Source: Bacteroidaceae bacterium (GTDB taxonomy: Bacteria > Bacteroidota > Bacteroidia > Bacteroidales > Bacteroidaceae). Taken from it: a stretch of 64,000 nucleotides of DNA. Each line of letters starts with the position of its first letter. Positions within the stretch are counted from its first letter, which is position 1. The position numbers were made by a program, and so were the translations under genes. The notes below the pieces were generated by a model, which saw only the letters and a list, made by a program, of their open reading frames with translations, did not search any database and was not told the origin of the DNA. The stretch is taken from assembly GCA_017548075.1 (NCBI GenBank), contig JAFYNL010000003.1, positions 20,195 to 84,194 of the forward strand, given 5' to 3'. Shown in pieces: positions 700 to 63,735 of the stretch.

Positions 700-806
700 T
701 TTCTACATTAAGCGTGTTAAGTTCTTAAACATAACGTGTTGTGTTGCCAATCATAACGTGCTTAGTTTGCAATCGTAACGTGGTGTGTTTTCAATTGTAA
801 CCGTTG
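700..806. repeat. 22-bp tandem repeat array A
   Basis: Five units with the AACGTG-like core at 711, 733, 755, 777 and 799, exactly 22 bp apart. Core variants are AGCGTG, AACGTG (three times) and AACCGT. The last unit overlaps the final codons and stop of galE (stop at 791-793). It belongs to the family also found at 7.9, 13.4, 22.6, 29.8, 39.8, 56.1 and 63.7 kb. Confidence 0.85.
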
Positions 807-7725: not shown

Positions 7726-7880
7726 AATTTAATCAGTTTATGAGACTCGGAAATGCAAGGTCAACTTGTTAAGAAATTAGCCGAATTGCTATCTTTTTGA
7801 TACTTTGAAATTCGACGCAACTTGGAGCCGTTTTGATAAGAAAACGCCTCGAAAACGGACTCGACAAGTTAAGTTTTCAG

Positions 7881-7945
7881 ACTTGGCTAGGGATGATTTC
7901 AAACTTAACTAGGGTCGTTTGCAAACTTAACTGGGGTCGTTTGGC
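7881..7945. repeat. 22-bp repeat array B (variant units)
   Basis: Three units at 22-bp spacing (cores at 885, 907 and 929 of this kilobase). The last two share ACTTAACT(A/G)GGGTCGTTT and the first is degenerate. They match only the terminal-type unit (TAACTGGGG) of the arrays at 13.4 and 22.6 kb. Confidence 0.7.
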
Positions 7946-8271
7946 ATTTTCGCTCGTTTCGTCGGCCATCAAAACAGGCTAAAATTGGTGTTTTTGCACT
8001 CGAAATAGGTGCTTTTGGCTACCCTGAAAACAAGGTAAAAATTGTAAGCTCAACATACTCAAATGGTTATGCAAGAATGGATCGCTCTCGTTGTCTTGAC
8101 CCTAGATACAGACCAAGCAATTCCGAACGATTCTCAGCGGCTTTGGAAAATTCAGTATGTCAGCAGAAACGGCCCAAATCTTTCAATCTGTCAACTGCGG
8201 AAAGTTGCAATCCAGACGAATTTGCCTGATAATTTTTAAGCAGAAATCTTTCAATTATCATTTTTTATTCG

Positions 8272-13280: not shown

Positions 13281-13344
13281 GCCAAAATTTTTCAATTATG
13301 AAAATCGTATGAACATTTTTTATTGGATGCGTTCACAAACATCC

Positions 13345-13460
13345 CCAGTTACGATGCCAAACATAACACGTTAACTTCGCCAACTTAACACGTTAAAATC
13401 GCAATCGTAACACGTTAACTTTGCCAACGTAACTGAGGTCGTTACAAACTTTAACTAAAT
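13345..13460. repeat. 22-bp tandem repeat array C
   Basis: Five units with cores at 365, 387, 409, 431 and 453 of this kilobase, exactly 22 bp apart. The first three carry TAACACGTTAA, and the fourth and fifth are variant (TAACTGAGG, TTAACTAAA). An inverted cap, CCCAGTTACGAT, lies about 20 bp before the first unit. The TAACTTTG in the third unit (13416-13423) also matches the -7 promoter consensus. Confidence 0.88.
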
Positions 13461-14899: not shown

Positions 14900-14910
14900 T
14901 ACATAAAGAA

Positions 14911-16119: not shown

Positions 16120-16142
16120 TTCATAGTTAAGAGTTCAAAGTT

Positions 16143-17582: not shown

Positions 17583-17605
17583 ATTTAATGCGGAAATATT
17601 AGAGT

Positions 17606-18364: not shown

Positions 18365-18382
18365 CTATGTTAGAGAGGATGT

Positions 18383-18970
18383 CTACGAGGTAAAGCGTTG
18401 CTCTATGACTGACCAGTCAACAATCTGCCAAAGGGCTGCTAGATGGTCAGGACGACGATTCTGGTAGTCGAGGTAATAAGCATGCTCCCAGACATCGAAG
18501 GTAAGGAGAGGATTGAAACCTTTCTGAATGGGATTGGCAGCATTAGGCTCTTGAGTGATAAGGAGATTGCCCTCTTCATCGGCCGAAAGCCAAACCCAAC
18601 CAGAGCCAAAGAGTGTGGCTCCCTTCTTCTGAAACTCGTCCTTGAAAGCATCAAACGAGCCAAACTGCTTGTCGATGGCTTCTGCAAGCTTTCCTATTGG
18701 CTTGTTGTCGGCCTTCGGAGCTGCAAACTGAGCGAAGTAAAGATTGTGGTTCAGGATCTGTCCTGCATTGTTGAGAATACCTCCATCGGCTTGTTTAACA
18801 ATGGTTTCAAGAGGCACATCTTCCCACTTTGTTCCAGGCAGGAGATTGTTGAGGTTGTTCACATAGCCAGCAAGATGCTTTCCATGATGGAAACCAATAG
18901 TCTCGCGGCTGATAACTGGCTCGAGAGCCTCCGATGCATAAGGCAAAGGCATCAATTCAAAAGGTTTCAT
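18383..18970 (-). CDS. sodB: Superoxide dismutase (Fe/Mn type)
   Basis: Dismutates superoxide in the cytoplasm. Metal ligands are His28 (FHHGKH), His75 (LNHNLYF), Asp159 and His163 (DVWEHAYYLDYQNRR). It has 195 residues. The NAGQILNHNLYF variant, with leucine before the metal histidine, is the Bacteroides form. Which metal is used cannot be told for certain, since Bacteroides enzymes can work with either iron or manganese. The start follows the sigma-factor stop by 27 bp, and no separate promoter is obvious. Confidence 0.95.
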   Translation of the reverse strand: MKPFELMPLPYASEALEPVISRETIGFHHGKHLAGYVNNLNNLLPGTKWEDVPLETIVKQADGGILNNAGQILNHNLYFAQFAAPKADNKPIGKLAEAIDKQFGSFDAFKDEFQKKGATLFGSGWVWLSADEEGNLLITQEPNAANPIQKGFNPLLTFDVWEHAYYLDYQNRRPDHLAALWQIVDWSVIEQRFTS

Positions 18971-18997
18971 AGTGGGTGGATTCTTAATTTTGAGGGT

Positions 18998-19588
18998 TTA
19001 TCCAACAAGGCTGATACGCTTCTCCTGTATGAGTTTGCGCAGGTTGATGAGTGCATAACGCATACGACCAAGAGAGGTGTTGATGCTGACTCCAGTCATC
19101 TCTGCAATCTCTTTGAAAGAGAGGTCATCATAGAAACGCATCATAATAACTTCTTTCTGAGGCGCAGGAAGGTAGTCGAGCAACTGACGAATAGAGGCTC
19201 GAGTCTGGCTGTCAATCATCTCATCTTCGCGAGTCGCTTCGCTAAGGCTCAGGCTATTGAGAGCTTTGGGCTTCACTTGGTCTTCGCGAACAGTCATCGT
19301 GCTCTCTGTCTTACGGCTCTTATCGAGAATAAGGTTATGAGCAATACGAGTGAGCCAAGCACTAAACTTGCCAGTTGTCTGGTACTTGTGACTTCTGATA
19401 GCTATAATGGCACGCTGGAATGTGTCCTGGAAGAAATCGTTGGCTACATCTTCATCTTTCACTAGGAAAAGAATGTAGGAATAGATGTACGCTTGATGGC
19501 GTTCAAGCAAAACATCAAATGCACCGTCGTTGCCTTCTTCATACAATACAACCAACTCATGGTCGGTCATTGCAGATAATTGATTCAT
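18998..19588 (-). CDS. ECF-type RNA polymerase sigma factor
   Basis: 196-residue sigma factor with region 2 (AFDVLLERHQAYIYSYILFLVKDEDVANDFFQDTFQRAIIAI) and region 4 (LPAPQKEVIMMRFYDDLSFKEIAEMTGVSINTSLGRMRYALINLRK), the latter a clear helix-turn-helix. No anti-sigma gene is adjacent; downstream are SOD and an AlkD-like repair gene, so it may belong to an oxidative or alkylation stress circuit. It has its own promoter element at 19631-19638, so it need not be autoregulated. Confidence 0.92.
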   Translation of the reverse strand: MNQLSAMTDHELVVLYEEGNDGAFDVLLERHQAYIYSYILFLVKDEDVANDFFQDTFQRAIIAIRSHKYQTTGKFSAWLTRIAHNLILDKSRKTESTMTVREDQVKPKALNSLSLSEATREDEMIDSQTRASIRQLLDYLPAPQKEVIMMRFYDDLSFKEIAEMTGVSINTSLGRMRYALINLRKLIQEKRISLVG

Positions 19589-19630
19589 TACGTCTCAAAA
19601 AATGGTTTTGGAGTAATGTTTGTCGATAGG

Positions 19631-19638
19631 CAAAGATA
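19631..19638 (-). promoter_or_regulatory. Promoter -7 element for the sigma-SOD-AlkD cluster
   Basis: TATCTTTG followed by C on the minus strand, 43 bp before the sigma-factor ATG. Confidence 0.6.
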
Positions 19639-19774
19639 GTTTTAGTTAAAAAAATGATGTTTTGACGATGCAAAGTAATGGCTTTTTCTTCATATCTGCA
19701 AACTTTTTTGTCATTTTTTTACGTTTTGTGCAACGAAAAAGTACGATAAGTAGGGCATTTTGCACAAAAACATG

Positions 19775-19782
19775 TAACTTTG
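19775..19782 (+). promoter_or_regulatory. Promoter -7 element for mazG
   Basis: TAACTTTG, matching TAnnTTTG, 25 bp before the mazG ATG. Confidence 0.6.
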
Positions 19783-19806
19783 TGCAGTTTTTATTAACAA
19801 ATAATA

Positions 19807-20592
19807 ATGAATACAAGAGAAGAGAAGTTGCAGGCATTCGGACGCTTATTGGATGTGATGGACAACCTGAGAGAGAAGTGTCCTTGGGACCATAAACAGA
19901 CCAACGAAAGCTTGCGACCCAATACAATCGAAGAGACATTTGAGCTTTGTGATGCACTCCTGAAAGATGATGTGCCCAATATAGAAAAGGAACTTGGAGA
20001 CGTTCTGCTTCATATTGTTTTCTATGCTAAGATTGCAAGCGAGAAGGGACAATTCGACATAGCCGACGTTTGCAACAAACTTTGCGACAAACTCATCTTC
20101 CGTCATCCTCATGTTTATGGAGATGCAGTTGCAAAGACTGCTGGAGATGTGGTGATGGCTTGGGAGCAAATCAAGCAGAAAGAAAAGGACGGCAATAAGA
20201 CTGTGCTTGGGGGTGTTCCCAATTCGTTGCCTTCACTCATTAAGGCTTATCGCATTCAAGACAAAGCTAGGGCTGTTGGCTTCGACTGGGAGAAGAAGGA
20301 AGATGTCTGGGATAAAGTCAAGGAAGAACTTGGTGAATTGCAGGCTGAACTTGCAAAAGATGACAATCAGGACAAGCAAACTGCCGAATATGGAGACTTT
20401 CTATTCAGCCTCATTAATGCTGCAAGACTTTACCATATTAACCCCGACAATGCCCTTGAACACACGAACCAGAAGTTCATTCGTCGGTTCAACTATGTAG
20501 AGAAGAAGGCAAAGGAGCAAGGATTGGAGCTTAAGGAAATGACGCTAGCTCAGATGGATGCTCTTTGGAACGAAGCGAAGCAATCGGAATAA
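19807..20592 (+). CDS. mazG: Nucleoside triphosphate pyrophosphohydrolase MazG
   Basis: Hydrolyses NTPs and dNTPs to monophosphates and pyrophosphate, a nucleotide-pool cleaning enzyme. It has 261 residues with two MazG repeats. The first has LREKCPWDHKQTNESL and the EExxE-type metal motif EETFELCDAL, followed by EKELGDVLLHIVFYAKIASE (residues about 35-80). The second lies at about 165-215 (KEELGELQAEL, EYGDFLFSLINAARLYHINP). A hairpin ends the transcript just after the stop. Confidence 0.95.
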   Translation: MNTREEKLQAFGRLLDVMDNLREKCPWDHKQTNESLRPNTIEETFELCDALLKDDVPNIEKELGDVLLHIVFYAKIASEKGQFDIADVCNKLCDKLIFRHPHVYGDAVAKTAGDVVMAWEQIKQKEKDGNKTVLGGVPNSLPSLIKAYRIQDKARAVGFDWEKKEDVWDKVKEELGELQAELAKDDNQDKQTAEYGDFLFSLINAARLYHINPDNALEHTNQKFIRRFNYVEKKAKEQGLELKEMTLAQMDALWNEAKQSE

Positions 20593-20597
20593 AAAAA

Positions 20598-20634
20598 GAA
20601 GAGCAGAACATGCATCCCTGCAAACCTGCTCTTC
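20598..20634 (+). terminator. Bidirectional hairpin terminator after mazG
   Basis: GAAGAGCAG (20598-20606) pairs perfectly with CTGCTCTTC (20626-20634), with an A-run before it and T-rich sequence after. It lies between the convergent mazG and the Spy-like gene. Confidence 0.65.
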
Positions 20635-20664
20635 GCCGAAACTTCTTTTTACCTTAAAGCCTAA

Positions 20665-21135
20665 TTAATTCTGTTTCGGTCGAGGACCTCCTCTATGAGG
20701 CCTGTTTTCTCCGCCGAAGTCTTCCAGCATCTTTCTGTGGAACTGGTCTTCGGCACACATTGCTTTGTATACTTTCTGAGGCGGAACAACCTGGCAAAGT
20801 TTCTTATAGTAAGTCACTTCGAGCTTTGCCATCTCTACGCCTAAGTCCTTAATTTTCTGGATGATGATGGAGTAGTCCTTGTCTGCACCAGCTTGAGGAG
20901 CGTTCTTCTTGAGCATGAAGATCTGGCGTTGCAAACCTCTTTGCTTGCCCTTCATCTCGAAATAAATAGGGTAGAAGGCCTGTGCTTCTGAAGAATTGAA
21001 GCCTGCTTCTGCAGTCACATAGCTCTCGAGCTTTGACTTAAACTCCTGAGGATTGAACTTACCTCTCTGCTGTTGTTGTGCCATCAGAGCAATACCGAAC
21101 AGCAGGAAACTGAATGATAAAATAAACTTCTTCAT
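20665..21135 (-). CDS. Spy/CpxP-like periplasmic protein
   Basis: 156-residue exported protein. Residues 1-19 are a signal peptide (KKFILSFSFLLFGIALMAQ). The mature part is an all-helical, basic and glutamine-rich protein with a Spy/CpxP-like pattern (FNSSEAQAFYPIYFEMKGKQRGLQRQIFML; the VVPPQKVYKAMCAEDQFHRKML segment corresponds to the LTxxQ region). The C-terminal tail is rich in Gly, Arg and Pro. It lies 3 bp after a putative anti-sigma gene and is the end of the sigma operon, so it probably senses or protects against envelope stress. Similarity is at fold and pattern level only. Confidence 0.75.
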   Translation of the reverse strand: MKKFILSFSFLLFGIALMAQQQQRGKFNPQEFKSKLESYVTAEAGFNSSEAQAFYPIYFEMKGKQRGLQRQIFMLKKNAPQAGADKDYSIIIQKIKDLGVEMAKLEVTYYKKLCQVVPPQKVYKAMCAEDQFHRKMLEDFGGENRPHRGGPRPKQN

Positions 21136-21138
21136 ATC

Positions 21139-21474
21139 TTATTCTGCTTCGGTTAAGTATGATGCAATACTCATATTGTCTATCATCGAGTAATCCAATG
21201 CATCTTCTATGTACTGAATATCCTCGGCTTCAGCAACTTGCACATTATGGCGGCTTTCGAGCATCCAGCCTCCAGCAGCCACACAACCCACCAGAACAGC
21301 CGCAGCAGCCCATCGCCAAACCAGATTGCGATGCTTTCTTCTGGGCACACGACTCATCACTCTGTCCGTCAGTCCCTCGAAGTAGCCTTCAGGAACCTTG
21401 AACGGAGTCTCTTGGCCAAAGCGCTCGAAAAGCTTTGCTTCCAACTCTTCTGTGTTATAGTTTGTTGTCTTCAT
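21139..21474 (-). CDS. Small single-span membrane protein, probable anti-sigma factor
   Basis: 111 residues. An N-terminal cytoplasmic part (ELEAKLFERFGQETPFKVPEGYFEGLTDRVMSRV) has the PEGYFE motif seen in small Bacteroidetes proteins encoded next to ECF sigma genes. One membrane helix follows (about residues 52-70, WRWAAAAVLVGCVAAGGWML), then an acidic periplasmic tail. It lies directly after an ECF sigma gene and before the Spy-like gene. The anti-sigma role is inferred from position and topology; no zinc-binding anti-sigma motif (HxxxCxxC) is present. Confidence 0.65.
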   Translation of the reverse strand: MKTTNYNTEELEAKLFERFGQETPFKVPEGYFEGLTDRVMSRVPRRKHRNLVWRWAAAAVLVGCVAAGGWMLESRHNVQVAEAEDIQYIEDALDYSMIDNMSIASYLTEAE

Positions 21475-21507
21475 TCTACCTGTTTGATATATAATAATGT
21501 AAAAGGT

Positions 21508-22047
21508 TTAATCTAAATTCTCAAAAAATGCAGAAATTTTTTTTACGGCATGATGATAGGAAGCTTTCAAGGCTCCGATACTTGTGCCGAGAAGGTCGCT
21601 CATATCTTCGTATTTCATCTCGTTGAAGTACTTCAGATTGAAGACGAGCTTCTGTTTGTCGGGCAAAGTGCTGATGGCTTCCTGAAACTGCTTCTGCACC
21701 TCGTCTCCGTCGAAGTAGCTGTCGGAGGCCAGCATATCGGCAAAGTTCATGTCTCCCTGCTCGAGACTGAGGACTTGCTTCTTTTTAGACAGATGATTGA
21801 GCGACTCGTTGATGGCAATTCGGAAGAGCCAAGTTTGCAGGCGAGACTCTCCACGAAAACTGTCGATTGCACTCCAAGCCTTGATGAAAGTGTTCTGAAG
21901 GACATCGTCAGCATCGTCGTGAACGATTACCATTCTGCGGATCTGCCAATAGAGAGGCTCCTGATATTCGCGAACCAAACGCGTAAAAGCCGCTTCTTTG
22001 GTAGAAGGGTCAGTCAATTGCTTATAGAGTGCTTTCTCGTCTATCAT
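21508..22047 (-). CDS. ECF-type RNA polymerase sigma factor
   Basis: 179-residue extracytoplasmic-function sigma factor. Region 2 is LVREYQEPLYWQIRRMVIVHDDADDVLQNTFIKAWSAIDSFRGESRLQTWLFRIAINESLNHLSKKK, and region 4 is STLPDKQKLVFNLKYFNEMKYEDMSDLLGTSIGALKASYHHAVKKI, with the helix-turn-helix. It heads a three-gene operon with a putative membrane anti-sigma factor and a Spy-like protein, the classic layout of an envelope-stress regulon in this phylum. A clear TAnnTTTG element is not visible upstream, consistent with a promoter recognised by the sigma factor itself. Confidence 0.92.
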   Translation of the reverse strand: MIDEKALYKQLTDPSTKEAAFTRLVREYQEPLYWQIRRMVIVHDDADDVLQNTFIKAWSAIDSFRGESRLQTWLFRIAINESLNHLSKKKQVLSLEQGDMNFADMLASDSYFDGDEVQKQFQEAISTLPDKQKLVFNLKYFNEMKYEDMSDLLGTSIGALKASYHHAVKKISAFFENLD

Positions 22048-22102
22048 GACACTAAGTTAGACAAGCACGACAAAATAAGGTTTAAAGGGGAGTAAACTGA
22101 GT

Positions 22103-22405
22103 TTACTGTACTGAAACTTTGCGGACAACCTTGCCGACCTTAATCAGGTAGCAACCTTTCGGAAGGTTCAGGGCAAAACTCTTGTCGTTACTATCGATGC
22201 GGATGGTAGCGACCTTAGTTCCAGTCAAGTTGAAGATTTCCATCACTTCGCCTTGAGCACCAACAATGTGAACGTTGCCATCCTTAATGCTGAGTTGGAT
22301 ACCAGAAACACTAACCTCGATGCCGTCAGCCATAGGTTCTGCCAGCATGGAGATTGGAGCGAAAGCCATCGCCAAAGTGAGTGTTATGATAAAAATCTTC
22401 TTCAT
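22103..22405 (-). CDS. Small exported protein consisting almost only of a T9SS-type C-terminal sorting domain
   Basis: 100 residues from the ATG at 22403-22405. A TTG further up lies inside the promoter element and is not used. Residues 1-22 are a signal peptide (KKIFIITLTLAMAFAPISMLAEP). The rest (about residues 32-100) has the pattern of type IX secretion sorting domains: VHIVGAQGEVMEIFNLTGTKV, then LNLPKGCYLIKVGKVVRKVSVQ at the extreme C-terminus. Normally such a domain trails a large cargo; here there is no cargo. It could be a decayed cargo gene, a small surface protein, or a competitor or chaperone-like partner of the pathway. The sorting-domain call is from pattern only. Confidence 0.7.
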   Translation of the reverse strand: MKKIFIITLTLAMAFAPISMLAEPMADGIEVSVSGIQLSIKDGNVHIVGAQGEVMEIFNLTGTKVATIRIDSNDKSFALNLPKGCYLIKVGKVVRKVSVQ

Positions 22406-22423
22406 TCTGTATAGAATTCGATG

Positions 22424-22431
22424 CAAAGATA
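22424..22431 (-). promoter_or_regulatory. Promoter -7 element for the sorting-domain gene
   Basis: TATCTTTG followed by C on the minus strand, 19 bp before the ATG at 22405. This rules out the in-frame TTG at 22424-22426 as a start. Confidence 0.65.
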
Positions 22432-22570
22432 GGTTTTTTCAGTTATTCCTGCAAGCATTTCATGTAAAAAAGTGTTGTTTTTCACAAGAAAAGTTCAAAA
22501 ACATGCTCAAGAACATACTTTCGCATACAATAAAGCGCGTTTCGACCTAAAACTTTGTCTTTTCTGATGA

Positions 22571-22680
22571 CCCTCAGTTAAAATCAAAACTTAACACGTT
22601 AACTTCGCCAACTTAACACGTTAAAATCGCAAACTTAACACGTTAACTTTGCCATCGTAACTGGGGTTGTTTGGGAACGA
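22571..22680. repeat. 22-bp tandem repeat array D
   Basis: The most regular array. Units have cores at 593, 615, 637 and 659 of this kilobase, exactly 22 bp apart. The first three share ACTTAACACGTTAA, and the fourth is the terminal variant TCGTAACTGGGG. An inverted cap, CCCTCAGTTA, starts at 22571. It lies upstream of the sorting-domain gene and downstream of the FAS1 gene. Confidence 0.92.
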
Positions 22681-22718
22681 ACCTGGAGGTCTGCTCTCCC
22701 AAAACACTCAATCCCGCT

Positions 22719-24824
22719 CTACCAAATGTCTTCCGGCTTCTCAGGATTGTCGTAGATTTCCTTCGGACAATACTCGATGTGGTCCATATAGAACTCAGCC
22801 GTCTCAGTATCGAGGACAGACTTCATCTTCAGGTAATAGGTTTTGTCTGGGTCGAGAGTTTGTCTGGTTACGATTCTTCGAACGATATTCCGATTGACGT
22901 TTGCTCTCGCAGTAGTTCCTGGATTCTTGAGAATGAGGATGCTTTCCTCGCCCTTCATGAATCCGCAGTTGCGCATCTGTTTGTCGGCTTCTGCATCCGC
23001 ATCATCATCGGTTCCAGTATCTTCAATCCAGCCAGTAATCGGATCGACTCCTCCAAGTGTAAGATTGACTGGAATTCCTGCTGCGGGCATGGCGTCGAGA
23101 CGGTCTCCGAAGTAGAACTGAGCGATTCCTCTGTCGCTATTTGTCAGGATTCGATAGCGGACTTCATAGGTTCCTCGCTTTGGAACAGGCGGGAGAGTGA
23201 AAACGAGTTCCCACCTTCCAACACACTTCACTTCGTCCCCACAAAGGCTACCAAACTTGTAGTTGTAGGCATTATAATACACAAAGGTAGAGCCCTCGTT
23301 GATGCTGAGGTTGCCGATGTACTTGTATTCCGCATCATCAGGGAAGTGAACCCATTGATGTCTGGCATCAGTAAGGGGAACTCTTCGAATGTCGTTGTTC
23401 ATCACTTCGGGGAAGAAACTCATACAATCCATTCGGATTCGGGTTCGAGCCAAATTGTTGCGAGTCTCCTCGTTATAGGCAATGGGAGCATCTATCTCGT
23501 AGATATAGCCGTTCAGAGCCGTTCTCTTGTCCAGGTCTTCTACTTCTCTCATCACTCGAGCCCCAACCTTACTTGGGTCGCAACCTATTTCGTGGCCACT
23601 TCCATGACGAGCATTATCGATTACAGGAAAACGGTTGAGGTAGACACCATTCGACTCCAGACTCTCATAGATCTTGAGCAATCTTCGCTTTCCCATCGTG
23701 ACATAATACTCCATTACGGGAATCGAAAGTTTGCCAGGAGAACCCACATAATCGTAACCCTTCTCGTTGTAGTGGAAGACGAGCCTGTCTGGAGCCAGTT
23801 TGAAGGGCAGAACATGATAGGTGGTCCATTGGTTGAGCATATTATCGAGGCTCTTGAAGTCCGTATTTGCCTCTGCCTCAGGATAATAGTCATGAGCATC
23901 AACCCAAGATTGAACATCTTCTGGAGTAATATCCTCGGCAGGTTTCCCAATCTCTTCTTGCCAGAAGTCGTCCTTTTCAGCAAAGATTGTGAAGCCATAT
24001 TTCCTGTGTTCAGGGGCATAGGAATAGCCGCCATCCATTGTCTTGAGGCCGTTTGCAGGCGTTTTCTCAGTAATCATATTCGTCTGATAAAGCGTCTCGT
24101 AAACCTCGTCTCTTATCTTCGAAAGTGTGTCCATCAACCCGCAAGCCTGAATGATTCGAGCCATTACGACGAAGCCGCTTTCATAGCCATCGAGTTGCTC
24201 TTGCAAGATGGTTTTCAGTGTGACTTCTCTTGGAGCAATCACTTTCTCCATTTGATGGATGACGCCATTGATGGTGAGAATGTCGCGATTGATAGAGTTG
24301 ATGGGGTAGATGCGATTGATGTAGATGCTATCTGGGTTTTTCGGACGATAAACACTCAGTTTGATGTCGTTCATGTTGGCTCGTCCGAACTCGTCATTAT
24401 TGTTTTGAGGGAAGTTCATGGTCTGATAGAATTCCTCGTCTCCGCCATCAATAATACTGTTATAGACGACAACTTTCATGATACTGTCCCGTATCTTATC
24501 GCTTTCGAAACTCTCCCAACTTGGCTCTTCAATGAAGCCAGCATCCACTTGATCCTGCAAATATTGGGCAATCGCATCGTTTGTTGGAGCAAAACAAGTA
24601 TAATTGCCACGAGCACTTAGAAGTTGGTAGACAGTACTCTTACTGCGTGGACTAATGGGAATGAGTTGCAGAAGTTTTACATATTCGCTGTAGTCGTCGT
24701 GTTTCTGCAGGTAGCCGAGTATTGTCTCTTCCCTGAAAACATAGCGGGCAGAAGTGTCGATGTCCTCCTTGCAAGCACAGAGAAGCAATATAAAAGATGT
24801 AAGAAGTAAGACGAACTTTTTCAC
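22719..24824 (-). CDS. FAS1 (fasciclin)-domain lipoprotein
   Basis: 701-residue lipoprotein. The lipoprotein signal is KKFVLLLTSFILLLCAC, with the lipidated cysteine near residue 17. I chose the GTG at 24822-24824 because it starts directly at this signal; a TTG 54 bp upstream lies in promoter-like sequence (TTACTTTGC). Two fasciclin-like units are visible: one around residues 50-170 (VYQLLSARGNYTCFAPTNDAIAQYL) and one around 245-420 (FTIFAEKDDFWQ ... LNQWTTYHVLP). A C-terminal beta-rich part follows (TYEVRYRILTNSDRGIAQFYFGDRLD) and may bind a ligand. Such proteins are usually surface or periplasmic partners of SusC/SusD systems, which are absent nearby. Confidence 0.82.
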   Translation of the reverse strand: MKKFVLLLTSFILLLCACKEDIDTSARYVFREETILGYLQKHDDYSEYVKLLQLIPISPRSKSTVYQLLSARGNYTCFAPTNDAIAQYLQDQVDAGFIEEPSWESFESDKIRDSIMKVVVYNSIIDGGDEEFYQTMNFPQNNNDEFGRANMNDIKLSVYRPKNPDSIYINRIYPINSINRDILTINGVIHQMEKVIAPREVTLKTILQEQLDGYESGFVVMARIIQACGLMDTLSKIRDEVYETLYQTNMITEKTPANGLKTMDGGYSYAPEHRKYGFTIFAEKDDFWQEEIGKPAEDITPEDVQSWVDAHDYYPEAEANTDFKSLDNMLNQWTTYHVLPFKLAPDRLVFHYNEKGYDYVGSPGKLSIPVMEYYVTMGKRRLLKIYESLESNGVYLNRFPVIDNARHGSGHEIGCDPSKVGARVMREVEDLDKRTALNGYIYEIDAPIAYNEETRNNLARTRIRMDCMSFFPEVMNNDIRRVPLTDARHQWVHFPDDAEYKYIGNLSINEGSTFVYYNAYNYKFGSLCGDEVKCVGRWELVFTLPPVPKRGTYEVRYRILTNSDRGIAQFYFGDRLDAMPAAGIPVNLTLGGVDPITGWIEDTGTDDDADAEADKQMRNCGFMKGEESILILKNPGTTARANVNRNIVRRIVTRQTLDPDKTYYLKMKSVLDTETAEFYMDHIEYCPKEIYDNPEKPEDIW

Positions 24825-24920
24825 TTTGTTTGACGCAAAAGTATGATTATTTTGCTGCAAAGTAACAAAAAAGTACAATACGAAGCAAGTTTTTCGGCAA
24901 AAAAAGTGCAGAAAAGGTTG

Positions 24921-25412
24921 TTATCTTGGTATTTCTATAACCTCAAGGTCGCTAAAGTTGCCGTTCTCTATGTTGAAGCGAACAAGGGTGCGAACTTGGT
25001 GCCAACCTTGCAGTCCTGCTGCTCCAGGATTGATGTGAAGCAGCTTCAATCGCTCATCATATTGGACTTTCAGGATGTGACTGTGTCCTGAAATGAAGAG
25101 TTTAGGCGGGTTTGCGAAGATTTGCTGGCGGATTCTGGGGTCATAATTGCCTGGATAGCCCCCTATATGAGTCATGAGAATATCGGCTCCTTCGCATGTC
25201 CAACGCAGCTTTTCTGTGTAGAGCCTTCGCAAATCACCTCCGTCGCAATTGCCAAAGACTGCTCTTAAAGGTCGAAACTCTTGCAGTTTCATCGCCAATT
25301 CAAGCGAGCCAATATCGCCTGCATGCCATATTTCATCGCATGGCTCGAAGTACTCCAAGTAGCGATTGTCCCAATAAGCATGGGTGTCACTCAGTAGCCC
25401 AATTCGCTTCAT
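24921..25412 (-). CDS. YfcE/MJ0936-type metallophosphoesterase
   Basis: 163-residue phosphodiesterase of the calcineurin-like superfamily. The metal motifs are all present: LLSDTHAYWDN (Asp, His), WHAGDIGS (Asp), FGNCDGGD (Asn), LMTHIGG (His) and ISGHSHILK (GH.H). Related enzymes hydrolyse phosphodiesters such as bis-pNPP; the natural substrate is unknown. The start overlaps the end of the MATE gene by 26 bp, so the two are translated together. Confidence 0.92.
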   Translation of the reverse strand: MKRIGLLSDTHAYWDNRYLEYFEPCDEIWHAGDIGSLELAMKLQEFRPLRAVFGNCDGGDLRRLYTEKLRWTCEGADILMTHIGGYPGNYDPRIRQQIFANPPKLFISGHSHILKVQYDERLKLLHINPGAAGLQGWHQVRTLVRFNIENGNFSDLEVIEIPR

Positions 25413-26751
25413 CTCGTTTGATTTTCCTTATCATATAAACCAGCATGCATGAGGCTGCCACAAAGCTGATTGTATCGCTTATCGGCATGGAAAGCCAAAC
25501 ACCGTCCAAGCCCCACCACTTCGGCAAGATGGCAAGCAAAGGAATGAGGAAGAGCATTTGTCGCGTAACACTCAGGAAGATGCTCTTGCCTGCGTGACCG
25601 ATGCTTTGGAAGAAGTTTCCGATGACCATCTGAGCGCCCACCAACGGGAAGGCTGCCACGATAAGTCGGAACGCTCTTTCCGCCTTTGCCGTCAACTCAG
25701 GACCAGTTCCGAAGATGCGAACCACATATCCTGGTATCAACTCTCCTGTCAAACAAGTCAGAAGGGTGATGCTCGTCGCTCCAATAATGCCGTAACGAAG
25801 CACTCTGAAGACGCGGTCATTCTTCCTCGCACCCCAGTTGTAGCCTACAATTGGCTGCATTCCTTGAACCAAGCCCATCACGACAGTCACAAACAAGAAG
25901 ATGACTCTGTTCACGATTCCGTAGGCTCCAATCGCCATGTCACCGCCATACTGGAGCAAACGATTGTTGCAAATCAGTACCACCAAGCAAGCGCAACTGT
26001 TGAACAGGAACGGGCTGAGACCGATTGCGAGACATTGGCGGACAATATCGAGCCTGAGTCCGTAGATGCCTCTGCGAAGATGAAGGAGTTCCGTAGGTCG
26101 ACTAAAGAGCTTCAATTGCCAGCCGAAAGCGATTGCCTGAGCAATTATGGTGGCCCAAGCAACTCCCTGAATGCCCCATTTGAACACGAAGATGAAGAGC
26201 GGGTCGAGTATGCAATTGACGATAATGGCGAGGAAAGTGCATCCCATAGCCGAGCGAGGATGACCTGCACTCCTCAGTATCGCGTTCGAGCCATAGTAGA
26301 GATGCGTTATCATGTTGCCAATCAAGATGATAAGCATATACTCGCGAGCATAGGGTAGGGTGACGTCGCTTGCTCCGAAAAGCCGCAGAATGTCGTCCAG
26401 GAAAGGCAAACAGGCGAATGTGAAGACAATGCCAAGCAGGACATTCAGGCTGATTGTGTTGCCAAGGATGTGCTGCGCTTCCTCGTATTTCCCTTGCCCA
26501 AGACGAACGCTTATCACAGTACTTGCACCCACGCCAACCATTGCTCCGAAGGCGGCTGAGAGGTTCATGAACGGACTTGCCACAGCCATGCCGCTGATTG
26601 CTTCGTCGCCCAAGCCTTGACCCACGAAGATGCTATCCACTATATTATATATAGAGGAGGCCACCATCGCGATAATTGCAGGCAGAGAATACTGCCAAAG
26701 CAGGCTGCCGATGGGCTTTGTGCCGAGTTCCGTGGGGACGTGTTGTTGCAT
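25387..26751 (-). CDS. MATE family multidrug/sodium antiporter
   Basis: 454-residue inner-membrane transporter with about twelve helices, exporting cationic compounds in exchange for Na+ or H+. Family features include PAIIAMVASSIYNIVDSIFVGQGLGDEAISGMAVASPFMN at the N-terminus, GVGASTVISVRLGQGKYEEA, and the mirrored C-terminal half with GMQPIVGYNWGARKND. It is followed, with overlap, by the phosphoesterase gene. The substrate is not predictable. Confidence 0.93.
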   Translation of the reverse strand: MQQHVPTELGTKPIGSLLWQYSLPAIIAMVASSIYNIVDSIFVGQGLGDEAISGMAVASPFMNLSAAFGAMVGVGASTVISVRLGQGKYEEAQHILGNTISLNVLLGIVFTFACLPFLDDILRLFGASDVTLPYAREYMLIILIGNMITHLYYGSNAILRSAGHPRSAMGCTFLAIIVNCILDPLFIFVFKWGIQGVAWATIIAQAIAFGWQLKLFSRPTELLHLRRGIYGLRLDIVRQCLAIGLSPFLFNSCACLVVLICNNRLLQYGGDMAIGAYGIVNRVIFLFVTVVMGLVQGMQPIVGYNWGARKNDRVFRVLRYGIIGATSITLLTCLTGELIPGYVVRIFGTGPELTAKAERAFRLIVAAFPLVGAQMVIGNFFQSIGHAGKSIFLSVTRQMLFLIPLLAILPKWWGLDGVWLSMPISDTISFVAASCMLVYMIRKIKRDEANWATE

Positions 26752-26785
26752 CTTATCCTGAATGATTGGGCTCGTTTTTCGTTTG

Positions 26786-26793
26786 CAAAGGTA
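26786..26793 (-). promoter_or_regulatory. Promoter -7 element for the MATE gene
   Basis: TACCTTTG followed by C on the minus strand, 35 bp before the MATE ATG. Confidence 0.6.
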
Positions 26794-26796
26794 TAA

Positions 26797-26829
26797 AAAG
26801 ATTAGGGATTAGAGATTAAGGATTAGAAT
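26797..26829. repeat. Heptamer tract GATTAGG/GATTAGA
   Basis: Units GATTAGG, GATTAGA, GATTAAG and GATTAGA in succession between the divergent MATE and macroglobulin-like genes. Confidence 0.7.
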
Positions 26830-26836
26830 TTTTTTG

Positions 26837-26844
26837 TAATTTTG
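26837..26844 (+). promoter_or_regulatory. Promoter -7 element for the gene at 26905
   Basis: TAATTTTG, matching TAnnTTTG, about 60 bp before the ATG. Confidence 0.6.
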
Positions 26845-26904
26845 TGCCGTCTTTTGTTACAAATCGACGCTTTCGGCGTTATATTTATATAAGGACATCT
26901 GAAA

Positions 26905-29787
26905 ATGAGACTGAAAGCCTTTCTCCTCGCACTCTGTCTGCCCGCTTTCCTCTTCGCTCAGGAATCGGAACTCGACAAGCTCGTCCAGCGGCAAGCTGCC
27001 TTTGGTCGGACCATTCCGCAGGAGAAGGTCTTCATCCATCTCGACAATACTTCCTACCAACTTGGCGACACAATTTGGTTCACGGCCTACCTTCGACGGA
27101 CCGATACGGACAAGCCTTCCGACGTGAGCGGCGTGCTTTATGTGGAGCTTTATGGTCATGAGGGCTACATGATAGAGCGCAAACTCATCCAACTAAAAGA
27201 GGGTAGAGGTAGTGGATTCTTTGCTTTAAGTAAGTATATACAATACGCTGGTTATTATGAACTTAGAGCTTATACTCGTTGGCAACTCAATTGGGGACGT
27301 TTCGAGCATAAGCATCTGATAGGAACCCGCAAGCTCTTCGACTCGAAGTTGCAGGAAAAAGAGTACTACAGAGACTATGAGAAACTCTATAGTCGTGTGT
27401 TCCCCGTCTATGACAGACCCGTCGAGCCTGGCGATTACAGCCGCGATATGACTTTGAGGGCAATGCGACGGCTCTACGATTTCGAGGCTCAGAAACGCGA
27501 ATTACAACTCTCGCTCTTCCCTGAAGGCGGCAATCTCGTTGTGGGACAGCCCTGCAGAGTGGCTTTCGAAGCGGCTTCTGCCGAAGGAGAGTGGCTCGAA
27601 GGTCAGATTGTCTGCGGAGATGTTTCGGCAAAGGTGCAACATCGTGGCAGAGGCGTTTTCGAGTTCATTCCGCAAAAGGGAATGGAGCAGGAAGTGGTCT
27701 TCACCTCGAAGGACGGCAGAACCGCTAAAGCAAAGCTTCCAAAAGCCGAGCAGACGGGCGTTTCGCTAAGGCTGGAGCAAGAGGGGAACTCTTGGGTGGC
27801 TCGCATCTCCCATTCAGCCGATTTGCTTGATGATAGCTTGGGCGTGAGCCTGATGTACGAAGGAAAGTTCCTCTTCGGTTCCACGTTGGATAAGTCGGAG
27901 TTCCGTTTCGACGAAGAGATTCTGCAGTCTGCCGGCGTCTATCAACTGACTGTCTTCGACACACAAGGTCGCGTCTTTGCCGACAGACTTTTCTTTTCCA
28001 GAGGCAAGGAGACACTCGAACCCACCCTCAGCATCGAAGGCCTGAAGGAAGAATATCAACCTTACGAGTCCGTCAGGCTCACTTTACGAGCCCCAGAAGG
28101 CAAGTCGAATGTATCTTTGACGGTTCGAGATGACTACAATCGCGATTTCATCTACGATAATGGTAACATCCTGACCGAAATGCTTTTGGCAAGCGAGATT
28201 CGCGGCTTCGTGCCCCAGCCCGGCTGGTATTTCGAGCAGGATGATGAAGAGCATCGTGTGGCTCTCGACCTCTTGATGATGACGCAAGGCTGGCGACGCT
28301 TCGACTGGCGCAATATGGCTGTCAGAGGGGCTTGGGACATCACTCAGCCTGCCGAGAAAGCACCCATCCTGATTGGTCGGACACACAAGAATTTAGACGA
28401 GGACATCGATTACCTCGACGAAAATGGCGTCCTTAAGTCGGAGAAAGAAGAGGAAGACGCTATTGATGACTTCCTCGGCGTTCCCCAGGACAAGATGACC
28501 TACGAAACAAAGCCCATCGATTTGTCCGACTTCGAGAGAGGAATGAGAACGAACGATTCGCGCAGGTCGCGCGAGCAAAACGACTACAAGAAAGCCGTGA
28601 CGGATTCAGAAGACGAGGACTCGATACGCAAGGAACTGAAGGTTCATTGCGAATTTGTGGCAATCGATGCCGAAACGTCGTTCGTGGGCGAAAGTGAGAC
28701 GGACAGAGGTGCTTTCCGCATTCAGTTGCCGCCTTTCTACGGGAAATCCATCCTCTTCCTGAGTGCTGCGGACACCACAAAATGGAAGGAAGGGAAGCCA
28801 TATACCTGGATTCAAGCCGAACCCGACGACGAGGAAACGGACTTCATGTACTTGCCCGGAAGCGCCAAACTGAAGCGCAAAATCTTCGTTGAGCGGCCCG
28901 ACTATCTCCCTCGAATCGTTTGGCCGTACCCCCATTTCGTGCAGCCCTACAACTACTATCAGAACCATCTGGCACCCACGTCTCAGCAAAGCAACGCCAA
29001 GGAATGGACAAGGCTGGACGACGAAACAATCATATCCGAAGTCACCATAAAAGCCAAGCGGAACTTCCTGCGCCGGTTCGACGACTCATGGCCCATCCTC
29101 GCCATCGACGCAGAGCGGGCACAGAATCTCTCGAGGGATTACGGCATAAACTTCATGCAATTGATAGTGGGCGACTATGGCGTGGGAGCCCCAAATGCCG
29201 ATGACGAGAAGATAACCAGCGAACCGACATTCGACCTCAGATATGGCTACGGCAGGACTCGCAGAATGCTGATGGCAATGGAGAATGACAAAGAGATTCC
29301 TCACGATTCCCTATATGCGCGGAAATATCTCAAGTCGATATCTTGGGGAGGCGAAGGCGGTTTCGAGCCCTCTCCAAGCGAAAGATTGGAGTACGAGGGC
29401 AATGGTGTCTGGGACATGTGGGTGCTCTATTCCGACTATAGCCCCAGAATGGAAGGCAGCAACCTCTATTATGGCGCCAACGAACCGAAGACAAAGCTTG
29501 TGATGTACCCTTTCCCCGATGGCTCCCGATACATGACCTACAGGGACCGCCGCTATGTCCTCGATGGCTTTGCCTATCCTGCAGAGTTCTATTCGCCTGA
29601 CTACAGCAACATGGAACCCCCAAAAGAAGCAACGGATTATCGCCGTACGCTTTATTGGAATCCGAACGTCAAGCTCGACGAGAATGGCGAGGCAGAAATC
29701 AAGTTCTACAACAACTGCCGCACCACACAACTCTCCGTCGAAGCCGAAGGCCAGTCCTCCGACGGCACTTTGCTTTGGACAAAATAA
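26905..29787 (+). CDS. Large secreted macroglobulin-like protein
   Basis: 960 residues with a signal peptide (residues 1-19, MRLKAFLLALCLPAFLFAQ). Residues about 35-135 are an MG2-like beta domain (QEKVFIHLDNTSYQLGDTIWFTAYL ... GYYELRAYTRWQLNWG), and several further beta domains follow (LSLFPEGGNLVVGQPCRVAFEA, then LSIEGLKEEYQPYESVRLTLRAPEG). Near residue 720, ISEVTIKAKRNFLRRFDD resembles the start of a TonB-receptor plug domain, as in related Bacteroidetes proteins. Another beta domain closes the protein (ADIKFYNNCRTTQLSVEAEGQ-like). No thioester motif is seen. These periplasmic or surface proteins are widespread in the phylum but not functionally assigned. Confidence 0.8.
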   Translation: MRLKAFLLALCLPAFLFAQESELDKLVQRQAAFGRTIPQEKVFIHLDNTSYQLGDTIWFTAYLRRTDTDKPSDVSGVLYVELYGHEGYMIERKLIQLKEGRGSGFFALSKYIQYAGYYELRAYTRWQLNWGRFEHKHLIGTRKLFDSKLQEKEYYRDYEKLYSRVFPVYDRPVEPGDYSRDMTLRAMRRLYDFEAQKRELQLSLFPEGGNLVVGQPCRVAFEAASAEGEWLEGQIVCGDVSAKVQHRGRGVFEFIPQKGMEQEVVFTSKDGRTAKAKLPKAEQTGVSLRLEQEGNSWVARISHSADLLDDSLGVSLMYEGKFLFGSTLDKSEFRFDEEILQSAGVYQLTVFDTQGRVFADRLFFSRGKETLEPTLSIEGLKEEYQPYESVRLTLRAPEGKSNVSLTVRDDYNRDFIYDNGNILTEMLLASEIRGFVPQPGWYFEQDDEEHRVALDLLMMTQGWRRFDWRNMAVRGAWDITQPAEKAPILIGRTHKNLDEDIDYLDENGVLKSEKEEEDAIDDFLGVPQDKMTYETKPIDLSDFERGMRTNDSRRSREQNDYKKAVTDSEDEDSIRKELKVHCEFVAIDAETSFVGESETDRGAFRIQLPPFYGKSILFLSAADTTKWKEGKPYTWIQAEPDDEETDFMYLPGSAKLKRKIFVERPDYLPRIVWPYPHFVQPYNYYQNHLAPTSQQSNAKEWTRLDDETIISEVTIKAKRNFLRRFDDSWPILAIDAERAQNLSRDYGINFMQLIVGDYGVGAPNADDEKITSEPTFDLRYGYGRTRRMLMAMENDKEIPHDSLYARKYLKSISWGGEGGFEPSPSERLEYEGNGVWDMWVLYSDYSPRMEGSNLYYGANEPKTKLVMYPFPDGSRYMTYRDRRYVLDGFAYPAEFYSPDYSNMEPPKEATDYRRTLYWNPNVKLDENGEAEIKFYNNCRTTQLSVEAEGQSSDGTLLWTK

Positions 29788-29790
29788 AAT

Positions 29791-29880
29791 AACCCGTGGT
29801 TAAATTACAATTTTAACGTGTTATGATTGCCGTTTTAACGTGTTAAGTTCGCAAAGATAACGTGGATTGTGGGCAGTTTA
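29791..29880. repeat. 22-bp tandem repeat array F
   Basis: Units with cores at 793, 815, 837 and 859 of this kilobase, exactly 22 bp apart (CCCGTG, AACGTG, AACGTG, AACGTG). It starts 4 bp after the stop codon of the macroglobulin-like gene. Confidence 0.88.
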
Positions 29881-30459: not shown

Positions 30460-30467
30460 TAATTTTG
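30460..30467 (+). promoter_or_regulatory. Promoter -7 element for the methylmalonyl-CoA decarboxylase operon
   Basis: TAATTTTG followed by CG, 36 bp before the mmdA ATG. A TTGTTT stretch about 25 bp further up could be the -33 part. Confidence 0.65.
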
Positions 30468-30503
30468 CGCACGGAAATTTAAGCAAACACATTTTATATA
30501 ACA

Positions 30504-39691: not shown

Positions 39692-39770
39692 TAACTATTT
39701 ATTCAAATAACAAAATTATTAATTCCAAAAGTTCCCTTTAATTATAATAATGTTAGAAATGTTGTCAAAC

Positions 39771-39880
39771 TAGGCGTGGTTAAATCTCAAACATAACGTG
39801 TTAAGTTGACGATTTTAACGTGTGTCGTTGGCAAAGTTAACGTGTTATGATTGCAATCGTAACTGGCGTCGTTGACAATA
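39771..39880. repeat. 22-bp tandem repeat array E
   Basis: Five units with cores at 773, 795, 817, 839 and 861 of this kilobase, exactly 22 bp apart (GGCGTG, AACGTG three times, AACTGG). Bases 39795-39873 differ from 56054-56132 (array G) at only two positions. It ends 5 bp from the GH2 stop codon. Confidence 0.92.
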
Positions 39881-39884
39881 ACGT

Positions 39885-43208
<3,324 letters not shown>

Positions 43209-56000: not shown

Positions 56001-56029
56001 AGTATTCTAGAGCAGGATAGTCTGTAAAC

Positions 56030-56135
56030 GTAACGTAGTTAAATTTCAAACGTAACGTGTTACGTTGACGATTTTAACGTGTGTCGTTGGCAAAGTTAAC
56101 GTGTTATGATTGCAATCGTAACTGGCGTTGTTTGC
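56030..56135. repeat. 22-bp tandem repeat array G
   Basis: Five units with cores at 032, 054, 076, 098 and 120 of the 56-kb block, exactly 22 bp apart (AACGTA, AACGTG three times, AACTGG). Its 79-bp core is almost identical to array E. It lies between convergent genes. Confidence 0.92.
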
Positions 56136-56154
56136 CGATGCAACTGCCTTACTT

Positions 56155-57327
56155 TTATCTCAACTTGTTGCGGAGGAAATGTTGGCGAGTGTAAGCGAAG
56201 AAGAGAACGACGCCAAAAGCATTACTAACCCAAGCCGTCCAAAAGGCTGCGCCATAAGAGAAGTACTCTGCTGCCATTCCGCCAATGATTATTCCTAGTC
56301 CAACACCAGTTTCCCAAGCTGTGAAGAGAGTACTGTTGGCTGTTCCTCTTTGGGAAGAAGGAGCAAGGTTGATGAACATTGTCTGGAAGGCTGGGAACAT
56401 ATGTCCGTTGCCCAGACCTACGATGAGTGCGGCTCCGTAGAAGCCCCAAGCATTGTGAAGGGCTGCAAAGAGCAGATAGCCCATCAGCGAGATGAGTACG
56501 CCGTGAGTGGCATTTTCTGCGACCTTTCCTTTCCGCAAGCCTCTTGCTCCCACAAGTCGACTCGAAATCAGTCCCACACAAAGCAAAGTGAAGAATAGTC
56601 CTGTGCCAGTTGTGATGCCGAGTTCCTGCTTTGCATAGATGGCGATATAAGTGCTCACGACTCCATAAGAAAAGCTATAGAAGGCGATACAAAGCGCTTC
56701 GGGCCAACCTTTCAGCAAGAGGAAACGGTCGAGACTAATTGGCGTTTTGACCTCAACGAGTGGTCGAGGTTTCAGTTTCAGCGTACTATTGATGAGGAAG
56801 CCTATGCCTGCAGTTATGAGGGAAATGGTGAAGATGAGGTTGTAGTCGTGTGTCCATTGATAGATGAGCATTCCCATAGTTGGCGCAATAGCTGTGCCCA
56901 GGTTGTTGCTCAGCCCATAATAGCCGATGCCTTCTGCTCTTCTGCTCGAAGGAAGAACATCGATTGCAACCGTACTATTGGCAACAGTCGTGGCTCCCAT
57001 AGGTGCTCCATGAAGCGTTCGCAGGATGCAGAAAGAGAGTAGGGAACCTGCTATCAGGTAACCTCCAAAGAAGATGGCAAAGAGTCCGTAGCAAACGAGC
57101 AGAACGACTTTGCGAGGGAAGGAATCGACAAAGAAACCGCTGAAAGGACGAATCAGCAAAGCCGTCAAGGCATAACCGCTCAGCACCATTCCTGTCTCAT
57201 CCTTCGTAGCACCAAACACTTCGCTCAAATAAAGCGGGAAGAGTGGTGTAACGACCATGAAGGAGAAGTAGAGCATGAAGTTCGCACTCCACGCCTTCAG
57301 GTAATTGGAGTTCCAGAGTCGATCCAT
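56155..57327 (-). CDS. Major facilitator superfamily transporter
   Basis: 390 residues, about twelve membrane helices. Family features are ATKDETGMVLSGYALTALLIRPFSGFFVDSFPRK between helices 2 and 3, and VGLGNGHMFPAFQTMFINLAPSSQRGTANSTLFTAWETGVGLG in the second half. It resembles drug-type (YfcJ/AraJ-like) exporters; the substrate is unknown. Its start overlaps the stop of thrA (TAATG), so both are on one transcript. An export role for an amino acid is possible from this context, but not shown. Confidence 0.9.
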   Translation of the reverse strand: MDRLWNSNYLKAWSANFMLYFSFMVVTPLFPLYLSEVFGATKDETGMVLSGYALTALLIRPFSGFFVDSFPRKVVLLVCYGLFAIFFGGYLIAGSLLSFCILRTLHGAPMGATTVANSTVAIDVLPSSRRAEGIGYYGLSNNLGTAIAPTMGMLIYQWTHDYNLIFTISLITAGIGFLINSTLKLKPRPLVEVKTPISLDRFLLLKGWPEALCIAFYSFSYGVVSTYIAIYAKQELGITTGTGLFFTLLCVGLISSRLVGARGLRKGKVAENATHGVLISLMGYLLFAALHNAWGFYGAALIVGLGNGHMFPAFQTMFINLAPSSQRGTANSTLFTAWETGVGLGIIIGGMAAEYFSYGAAFWTAWVSNAFGVVLFFAYTRQHFLRNKLR

Positions 57328-63631: not shown

Positions 63632-63659
63632 CGGAAAATAGTTTAAACGGCCAAAACTT

Positions 63660-63735
63660 AGATCACGTTAATTGCAATTTTTATGTGTGAGGATTGCAAA
63701 CTTAGCGAGTTTTGTGGCCACTTTCAACACGCCGC
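63660..63735. repeat. 22-bp repeat array H (degenerate)
   Basis: Weak units with cores near 682, 704 and 726 of this kilobase (TATGTG, AGCGAG, AACACG), 22 bp apart, and a possible fourth at 660. Recognisable mainly by period and the ATTGCAA flank. Confidence 0.55.

Follow-up and report, generated by a model that had tools for sequence, protein, structure and literature searches.

Plasmid iterons with 22-bp spacing are polar direct repeats that lie two helical turns apart and are bound cooperatively; they mark one origin per replicon, whereas the arrays described here occupy many chromosomal loci. REP and BIME elements resemble these arrays in being intergenic, dispersed and located mostly in convergent and co-directional gaps (PMC3733652). 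A feature of their own is the GTAG- or CGTC-tagged stem-loop, the GTAG type being associated with tyrosine transposases (PMC3733652), while our arrays have no compensating flank arms and mostly no RAYT protein. The BrickBuilt MITE of Porphyromonas gingivalis, also from the Bacteroidales, is likewise intergenic, built of tandem direct repeats and present in several copies per genome (PMC4596501). It consists of a 23-nt unit in 19 copies with a leader and a tail bearing IS5-like terminal repeats, and even spacing is not described in the cited sections of that report (PMC4596501); in contrast, we count 88 arrays of period 22 in 759 kb of sampled genome and noticed no leader or tail in the arrays listed. 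Identity with BrickBuilt was rejected on unit length, 22 against 23 nt. Tandem repeats of 22, 23 and 41 nt are reported from P. gingivalis W83 (PMC4596501), so short-period arrays have been seen in this order before.

The uptake sequences of Neisseria and Haemophilus are group-specific, occur in many copies and have had their spacing discussed (PMC1939737), but they are single short motifs, many of them inside genes (PMC1939737), whereas here we find arrays without an excess of single units. The TAACTGA direct repeats of Beggiatoaceae are intergenic, and TAACTGA also ends some of our arrays; they differ in having a 7-nt unit and in lying mostly before start codons (PMC4679880). A search of the open-access PMC literature, subscription papers being outside its scope, returned no description of the present element and no report of short-period arrays that are regularly spaced, that keep common loci between species or whose cores turn over. 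Against that literature we judge evenly spaced, locus-sharing, core-changing arrays to be a new kind of element.

The window, by which we mean the whole 64,000-nt stretch analysed, belongs to a Bacteroidaceae genome (G000), an assembly of 66 contigs that totals 2.66 Mb at 88% completeness. The initial annotation had listed eight intergenic arrays of exact 22-bp period in it, and a chain scan with a position weight matrix of the 22-bp unit called the identical set (Table 1). The period is likewise as claimed: in a window-wide scan period 22 alone yielded self-similar clusters (four), and every other period from 12 to 39 yielded none. Allowing at most one mismatch, TTAACNNGTTAA had 12 matches in the window against 1.15 expected, 11 of them within arrays; exact 12-mers of the TTAACNNGTTAA type were confined to the arrays at 13.4, 22.6 and 29.8 kb, and the degenerate arrays at 0.7, 7.9 and 63.7 kb lacked even a one-mismatch 12-mer. 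Arrays 6 and 7 have almost identical sequence. Where genes flanking the arrays were scanned, their products fell into families with no relation to one another or matched nothing in Pfam; an example of the latter is the 960-aa protein of 26905-29787(+), adjoining array 5. Rfam 15 covariance models, applied to the window only, matched at none of the arrays. Their sole match was a class A bacterial RNase P RNA (RF00010, 10460-10837, minus strand, 230.7 bits).

Table 1. Period-22 arrays of the 64-kb window (positions are those of the window)
Array	Position	Strand	Structure and context
1	704..791	+	4 units, degenerate; its end coincides with the stop codon of an epimerase-family gene, 791-1804(-)
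2	7856..7987	-	6 units, tandem cap-type (CCCCAGTTA); divergent gap
3	13336..13445	-	Capped, with 3 TAAC cores; in the divergent gap that precedes adenylosuccinate lyase
4 (starting finding)	22571..22680 (22586-22673 in the matrix scan)	-	CAGTTA and TAACTG caps flank 3 TTAACACGTTAA cores
5	29786..29873	+	Its start coincides with the stop codon of 26905-29787(+)
6	39766..39875	+	10 nt from the stop codon of a GH2-family gene, 39885-43130(-)
7	56025..56156	+	Occupies a convergent gap of 154 nt
8	63653..63718	+	3 units, degenerate

The 22-bp unit combines TAAC-GT-GTTA as its core with a spacer of 12 nt whose centre is near TTGC/GCAA. All 88 arrays of G000 consist of 3 to 7 in-register units; 68 arrays have two or three good cores, and in the outer units a half-core is often swapped for a cap (CCCCAGTTA, CTGCAGTTA or CCTCAGTTA). 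The CAGTTA and TAACTG caps described at 13.4 and 22.6 kb are present as claimed; beyond these two arrays the caps vary (CCCCAG, CTGCAG, CCTCAG) and, judged by eye, left and right caps seem freely combined. Looked at as possible terminal inverted repeats of a MITE, CAGTTA and TAACTG were found to share the 22-bp register of the units. The cores have the two-fold symmetry attributed to them, but the arrays themselves are polar: in 51 of the 60 arrays with at least two AC/GT-centred cores the centres point in a single orientation, and the flanking words, drawn from a small set, differ between left and right. No complementarity of flanking words was found within the unit or across the spacer (2.29 vs 2.35 shuffled). 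Polarity was unrelated to gene direction (among co-directional cases the GT strand was coding in 22 and template in 25) and showed no clear link to replication, whether judged by neighbour orientation (same in 38 cases, alternating in 33), by local gene strand or by GC skew. Single units were not in excess over chance: a single Markov draw gave 28 lone units and the genome itself 18, of which one (contig C16) sits in the leader of an HU-related gene. The arrays had been set apart from CRISPR for want of variable spacers, and this stands: the 12-nt spacers are not unique but recurrent words common to several loci.

The arrays extend well beyond the window. A whole-genome search, which the initial annotation had called for, found TAACNNGTTA-N12-TAACNNGTTA with at most two mismatches 475 times in G000 against once for the reversed control. 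Chance was excluded as their origin by the presence of 52 arrays in 407 kb of G000 against none in one equal-sized Markov-simulated set. With genes predicted by a simple purpose-made caller, 26 of these 52 lie in co-directional, 17 in convergent and 7 in divergent gaps, one inside a predicted gene and one at an edge. The supposition that arrays occur alike in all gene contexts thus did not hold, since among gaps of at least 60 nt an array was present in 17 of the 27 convergent gaps but in 26 of the 85 co-directional and 7 of the 33 divergent gaps. The median distance from the array edge to an inward-facing stop codon was 15.5 nt (60 flanks) and to a start codon 165 nt (40 flanks) in the first G000 sample, and 29 and 176 nt, respectively, in a replicate sample. 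The pair pattern was also found in at least 63 contigs, mostly titled as metagenome-assembled genomes of uncultured Bacteroidales, Bacteroidaceae or Prevotellaceae, several from rumen or herbivore gut. One TAACACGTTA pair is on a short contig (JADINH010000051.1) of a genome titled Candidatus Avisuccinivibrio stercorigallinarum, perhaps misbinned. Three TAACNNGTTA cores at 22-bp spacing occur in four contigs of a viral collection, and 43 viral contigs match CGTG at five 22-bp steps.

The period is shared more widely than the core. In a scan for period only (periods 16 to 30, score 40), period 22 was prominent in G091 (17, others at most 1), G049 (11, at most 1), G099 (10, at most 1), the window (7, at most 1), G015 (11, at most 2), G016 (20, at most 4) and G090 (19, at most 6); G219 had 8 at period 22 and 4 at period 23, and in G105 the signal was weak (2). 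The cores differ between genomes and inside one genome, the arrays of G091 comprising 25 of a CCGC class, 9 of an ATAC class and 32 others. In G304 and G219, from another genus (g82) of the same family, the period-22 arrays have a CCGTGGTGNNTATATATGGCTA-like unit, and G219 also has some of period 23. A CRTG centre (CGTG or CATG) is present in 123 of 144 array consensus units from nine genomes, as against 23% of uniform random 22-mers, and units aligned on it follow the loose frame CMAW-N5-CRTG-N5-WTKG. The core arms are complementary between classes, as is expected of a dimer site too: over 48 distinct cores 1.75 of 3 positions matched vs 1.06 shuffled, a figure inflated by picking the centre so as to favour matching arms. 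CGTG at three consecutive 22-bp steps never exceeded 3 per strand in any of 79 genomes from the order's other families and reached as many as 307 per strand in the genus of G000 (121 genomes, many with few or none); at four steps, with one mismatch, it was found in 154 of 399 genomes and 20 of 30 genera of the family. These CGTG counts are a rough measure, reversed control patterns being frequent in several relatives; we take the latter as other cores of equal period.

Along the chromosome the arrays are evenly spaced. In the first G000 sample the mean distance between arrays was 7.45 kb and, with one contig merged, 45 gaps had a coefficient of variation (CV) of 0.42 and a minimum of 3,498 bp. 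When arrays were reshuffled 5,000 times among intergenic gaps of like type, the CV was 0.85 (lowest 0.51), and 15 gaps on average (lowest 5) fell below 3,498 bp, where none was observed. A second, non-overlapping G000 sample of 358 kb, with 36 arrays and 24 gaps averaging 6.95 kb, gave a CV of 0.34 and a minimum of 3,063 bp, against a null CV of 0.83 (lowest 0.44 in 5,000), with one gap below 3,498 bp vs 9.4 in the null (lowest 2). The motif-free, period-only scan of 480 kb of G091 found 66 arrays and 63 gaps with a mean of 7.12 kb and a CV of 0.46, against a null of 0.83 (lowest 0.53 in 5,000), and 3 gaps below 3 kb vs 18.7 (lowest 7). Neighbours of unlike core class in G091 were as regularly placed (34 gaps, CV 0.48) as those of like class (29 gaps, CV 0.43). 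As it is the union of the classes that is evenly spaced in G091, the dimeric DNA-binding protein proposed in the initial annotation is too simple a reader if taken as a single protein with one core.

Spacing elsewhere was less uniform. Partial signals came from G015 (CV 0.50, 2.8% of shuffles as low), G049 (CV 0.62, 15%, yet no gap below 3 kb vs 2.5, 3.7%) and G016 (CV 0.73, 30%, yet 3 gaps below 3 kb vs 6.9, 2.0%), and G090 (0.83), G099 (0.86) and G219 (0.66) showed no departure from the null; G482, G105 and G120 had too few arrays for the comparison (3, 2 and 1). Convergent gaps less than 3 kb from another array are mostly empty, holding one in 0 of 15 cases in G000 and 3 of 15 in G091; this partly repeats the regular spacing, in that array-free gaps lie between arrays, and the permutations are the test. 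A stretch of 16.7 kb on contig C2 of G000 (14651-31355) is array-free in spite of its wide intergenic gaps. Of 10 proteins scanned there, 6 have no Pfam family and the other four belong to ordinary families, and the stretch is possibly an acquired or mobile island.

G000 and G091 have arrays at shared loci while the cores differ. Orthologous regions in relatives matched with roughly 75-83% identity over their longer segments. In the gap at 13.3 kb, G057, G087 and G091 have arrays with other cores, G112 has a short remnant and G053 has none. At 22.6 kb the G053 array is that of G000 minus one 22-bp unit, and the array is missing in G057, G093, G084, G087 and G049; the orthologous gap measures 410 nt in G091 vs 258 nt in G000. 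Flanks at array-free orthologous gaps were too diverged to align for a target site duplication. By BLAST coordinates, the counterpart of 13.2-13.5 kb on contig C31 of G084 has about 3 kb extra between the flanking genes compared with G000. The sampled parts of G000 and G091 gave 126 reciprocal best hits (median identity 85.6%) and 79 gene pairs adjacent in both genomes, with arrays in both at 10 pairs, in neither at 66, in G091 only at 3 and in G000 only at none. Of these, 28 pairs have genes separated by 80 nt or more in each genome; arrays were present in both at 10, in neither at 18 and in one genome only at none (Fisher p 7.6e-8), an imperfect control in that the presence of an array itself widens the gap. 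Mosaic cores and the coexistence of several classes in one genome suggest gradual core replacement.

The Y1/RAYT transposase family (PF01797) had no match in G000, G091, G053, G057, G087, G084, G051, G015 or G049, and at most a weak one (up to 25.9 bits) in the array-rich G090, G128 and G099; 3 of 10 array-poor genomes matched, G120 and G014 strongly. A REP/RAYT system was rejected on the lack of a cognate transposase in 9 of 12 array-rich genomes and of compensating changes in the flanking words.

A search for the HU-HIG family, begun on a guess, turned up a candidate reader of the arrays. Among the matches listed were HU-related proteins some 155-165 aa long, with more than one copy in each array-rich genome. 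G000 has seven copies (TIGR01201/PF18291, about 153-157 aa), six of them 93-100% identical to the query copy. The G000 protein scored 71.4 bits against TIGR01201 HU_rel (NCBIfam, cut-off 68.6) and was also above the cut-off of PF18291; by these profile matches the candidate reader is a member of the HU family. No sequence relatives of it were found in the PDB at E 0.1. HU is said to bind DNA without sequence specificity (PMC5683647), and multi-copy nucleoid-protein genes are described from P. gingivalis, with no 22-bp repeat mentioned in the cited part of that work (PMC5771137). Contig ends are no more than about 1 kb away from several HU-related genes (C16, C36 and C44 of G000, C52 of G087, C45 of G015); given this and the near-identity of the G000 copies, the genes may belong to some longer repeat at which assemblies break.

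A period-22 array (score of at least 36) was present within 450 nt upstream of 15 of 23 HU genes, one of which had only 9 nt of upstream sequence, and downstream of 1 of 23; excluding three genes picked after the adjacency had been noticed (G016:C2, G091:C1, G000:C16), the upstream count was 13 of 20. The base rates over all genes were 56/359 (G091) and 63/509 (G000) upstream, and 85/359 and 87/509 downstream. The score of G091:C1 stems from a CCGC array near -295, not from a leader array. With an own-genome matrix, four of the seven G000 HU leaders, with two units each, outscored all 449 array-free control upstream regions (C27 39.1, C36 38.6, C45 36.3 and C16 16.0; control maximum 9.9). The TAAC core is found in three of the seven (C27, C36, C45); the C60 leader, with a TAAC-matrix score of 4.0 that eight controls equalled or exceeded, has a period-22 array with another core, and those of C20 and C44 likewise fit the TAAC matrix poorly. 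By shared 9-mers, 9 of 16 HU leaders were closest to the arrays of their own genome vs 32 of 200 controls (p 6e-4), a comparison in which the array sets came from seven genomes and the leaders, partly paralogous, from five, and which gave 11 of 16 without the control regions. The own-genome 9-mer scores of HU leaders exceeded those of controls (p 3.5e-7), and seven of the 16 do not resemble the arrays of their own genome best. The CGTG-array count had a median of 166 in 23 genomes with a near-full-length HU relative (E < 1e-45, three more positives being outside the count list) and of 4.5 in 98 without, a correlation confounded by relatedness to G000; 14 of the 98 still have at least 30 matches.

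These observations can be joined in one tentative model. The arrays would be platforms for a DNA-binding protein, dimeric and with a sequence preference, that is aligned on them at two-turn (22-bp) intervals. There would be one platform per 7-8 kb or so, at a gene-poor spot close by and often right behind a stop codon, and the chromosome would thereby be split into fairly regular segments by nucleoid anchors or points bounding supercoil domains. The likely reader would be the multi-copy HU-related proteins, binding units as dimers two turns apart, and the short arrays in HU leaders would provide feedback or autoregulation; the class-specific core arms would change between species while the loci stay. 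What the data show are the arrays, their period and polarity, the spacing in G000 and G091, the loci common to these two genomes, the turnover of cores and the arrays upstream of HU genes; binding by HU paralogues, autoregulation and an architectural function are what we infer. That such platforms at regular loci organise the nucleoid, with HU autoregulated via leader arrays, seems to us a possibility somewhat short of probable, and against it weigh the description of HU as a protein that binds without sequence specificity, the HU leaders that resemble the arrays of their own genome poorly, the lack of even spacing in G090, G099 and G219, and the difficulty of evolving a protein together with hundreds of sites that must change at the same time. 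Of the roles named in the initial annotation, chromosome organisation or a nucleoid function fits best because of the even spacing, the shared loci, the lack of lone-unit excess and the HU genes with upstream arrays; the initial interpretation is borne out in part, the mobile-element alternative being weakened but keeping some weight and a single dimeric reader of one core being too simple.

E. coli BIME-2 offers a model for gyrase-type sites. On that model the arrays might be sites where gyrase acts or supercoils are relieved as transcription units end; recognition would be through shape and phasing, with no dedicated protein. Their place beside stop codons and in convergent gaps, their regular spacing, the phasing of 22 as 2 x 11 bp and the apparent equivalence of differing core classes would all suit such sites, but reading by shape needs neither a TAACGTGTTA common to so many loci of one genome nor a CGTG centre, and it leaves the core-matched arrays in some HU leaders unexplained. 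We consider this account improbable.

Still less probable is that the arrays act as bidirectional terminators or insulators between operons. Proximity to stop codons and enrichment in convergent gaps agree with this, as does a moderate tendency of the RNA to fold (mean z -2.5 for 22 arrays each from G000 and G091, both strands, vs -0.9 for 22 of 118 array-free gaps). Intrinsic terminators were nevertheless rejected, as the hairpin-plus-T-run feature is absent (T fraction 0.26 in the 12 nt after arrays), and selection for an RNA or cruciform hairpin was rejected as the main cause, the folding being only moderate and the flanking words changing without compensation. A terminator would also sit poorly with the indifference of the GT strand to transcription in co-directional cases (22 against 25, as above) and with the scarcity of arrays in convergent gaps near another array (0/15 in G000, 3/15 in G091). 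We give about the same low credence to marks for DNA uptake or self-recognition, maintained by biased uptake of the cell's own DNA; species dialects, high copy number and even spacing resemble uptake sequences, but those are single short motifs and here no single motif is over-represented (18 lone units vs 28), on which ground an uptake sequence was rejected. A non-autonomous mobile element (MITE or REP) whose copies are spaced by target immunity is very improbable: near-identical pairs such as arrays 6 and 7, the presence of the 22.6-kb array in G000 and G053 with its absence in five relatives, and the spacing that target immunity would produce speak for it, but this suggestion of the initial annotation is weakened by the loci shared with G091 despite unlike cores and by the transposase search, in which nine of the 12 array-rich genomes gave no Y1_Tnp/RAYT (PF01797) match and the other three scored 25.9 bits or less, the latter of limited weight given that CGTC-type REPs are said, in the cited part of one source, to have no dedicated transposase (PMC3733652).

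The HU-platform reading has a wider form, in which the arrays make up a chromosome-wide ruler: hundreds of loci at even distances, common to different species, would carry a recognition word that is rewritten from species to species in step with the expansion of the HU-related family, whose members would read the word and regulate themselves through it. We regard this form as rather unlikely; if true, it would amount to a bacterial nucleoid code with dialects, conserved by place rather than by sequence. The question of how bacterial chromosomes are split into domains a few kilobases long is still open, and to our knowledge no sequence elements that set such domains at a regular distance have been described. 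If the arrays set domains, this would be directly testable in a common family of the gut and rumen, and the turnover of recognition words at shared loci would serve as a model of how a DNA-packing protein and its hundreds of sites evolve together.
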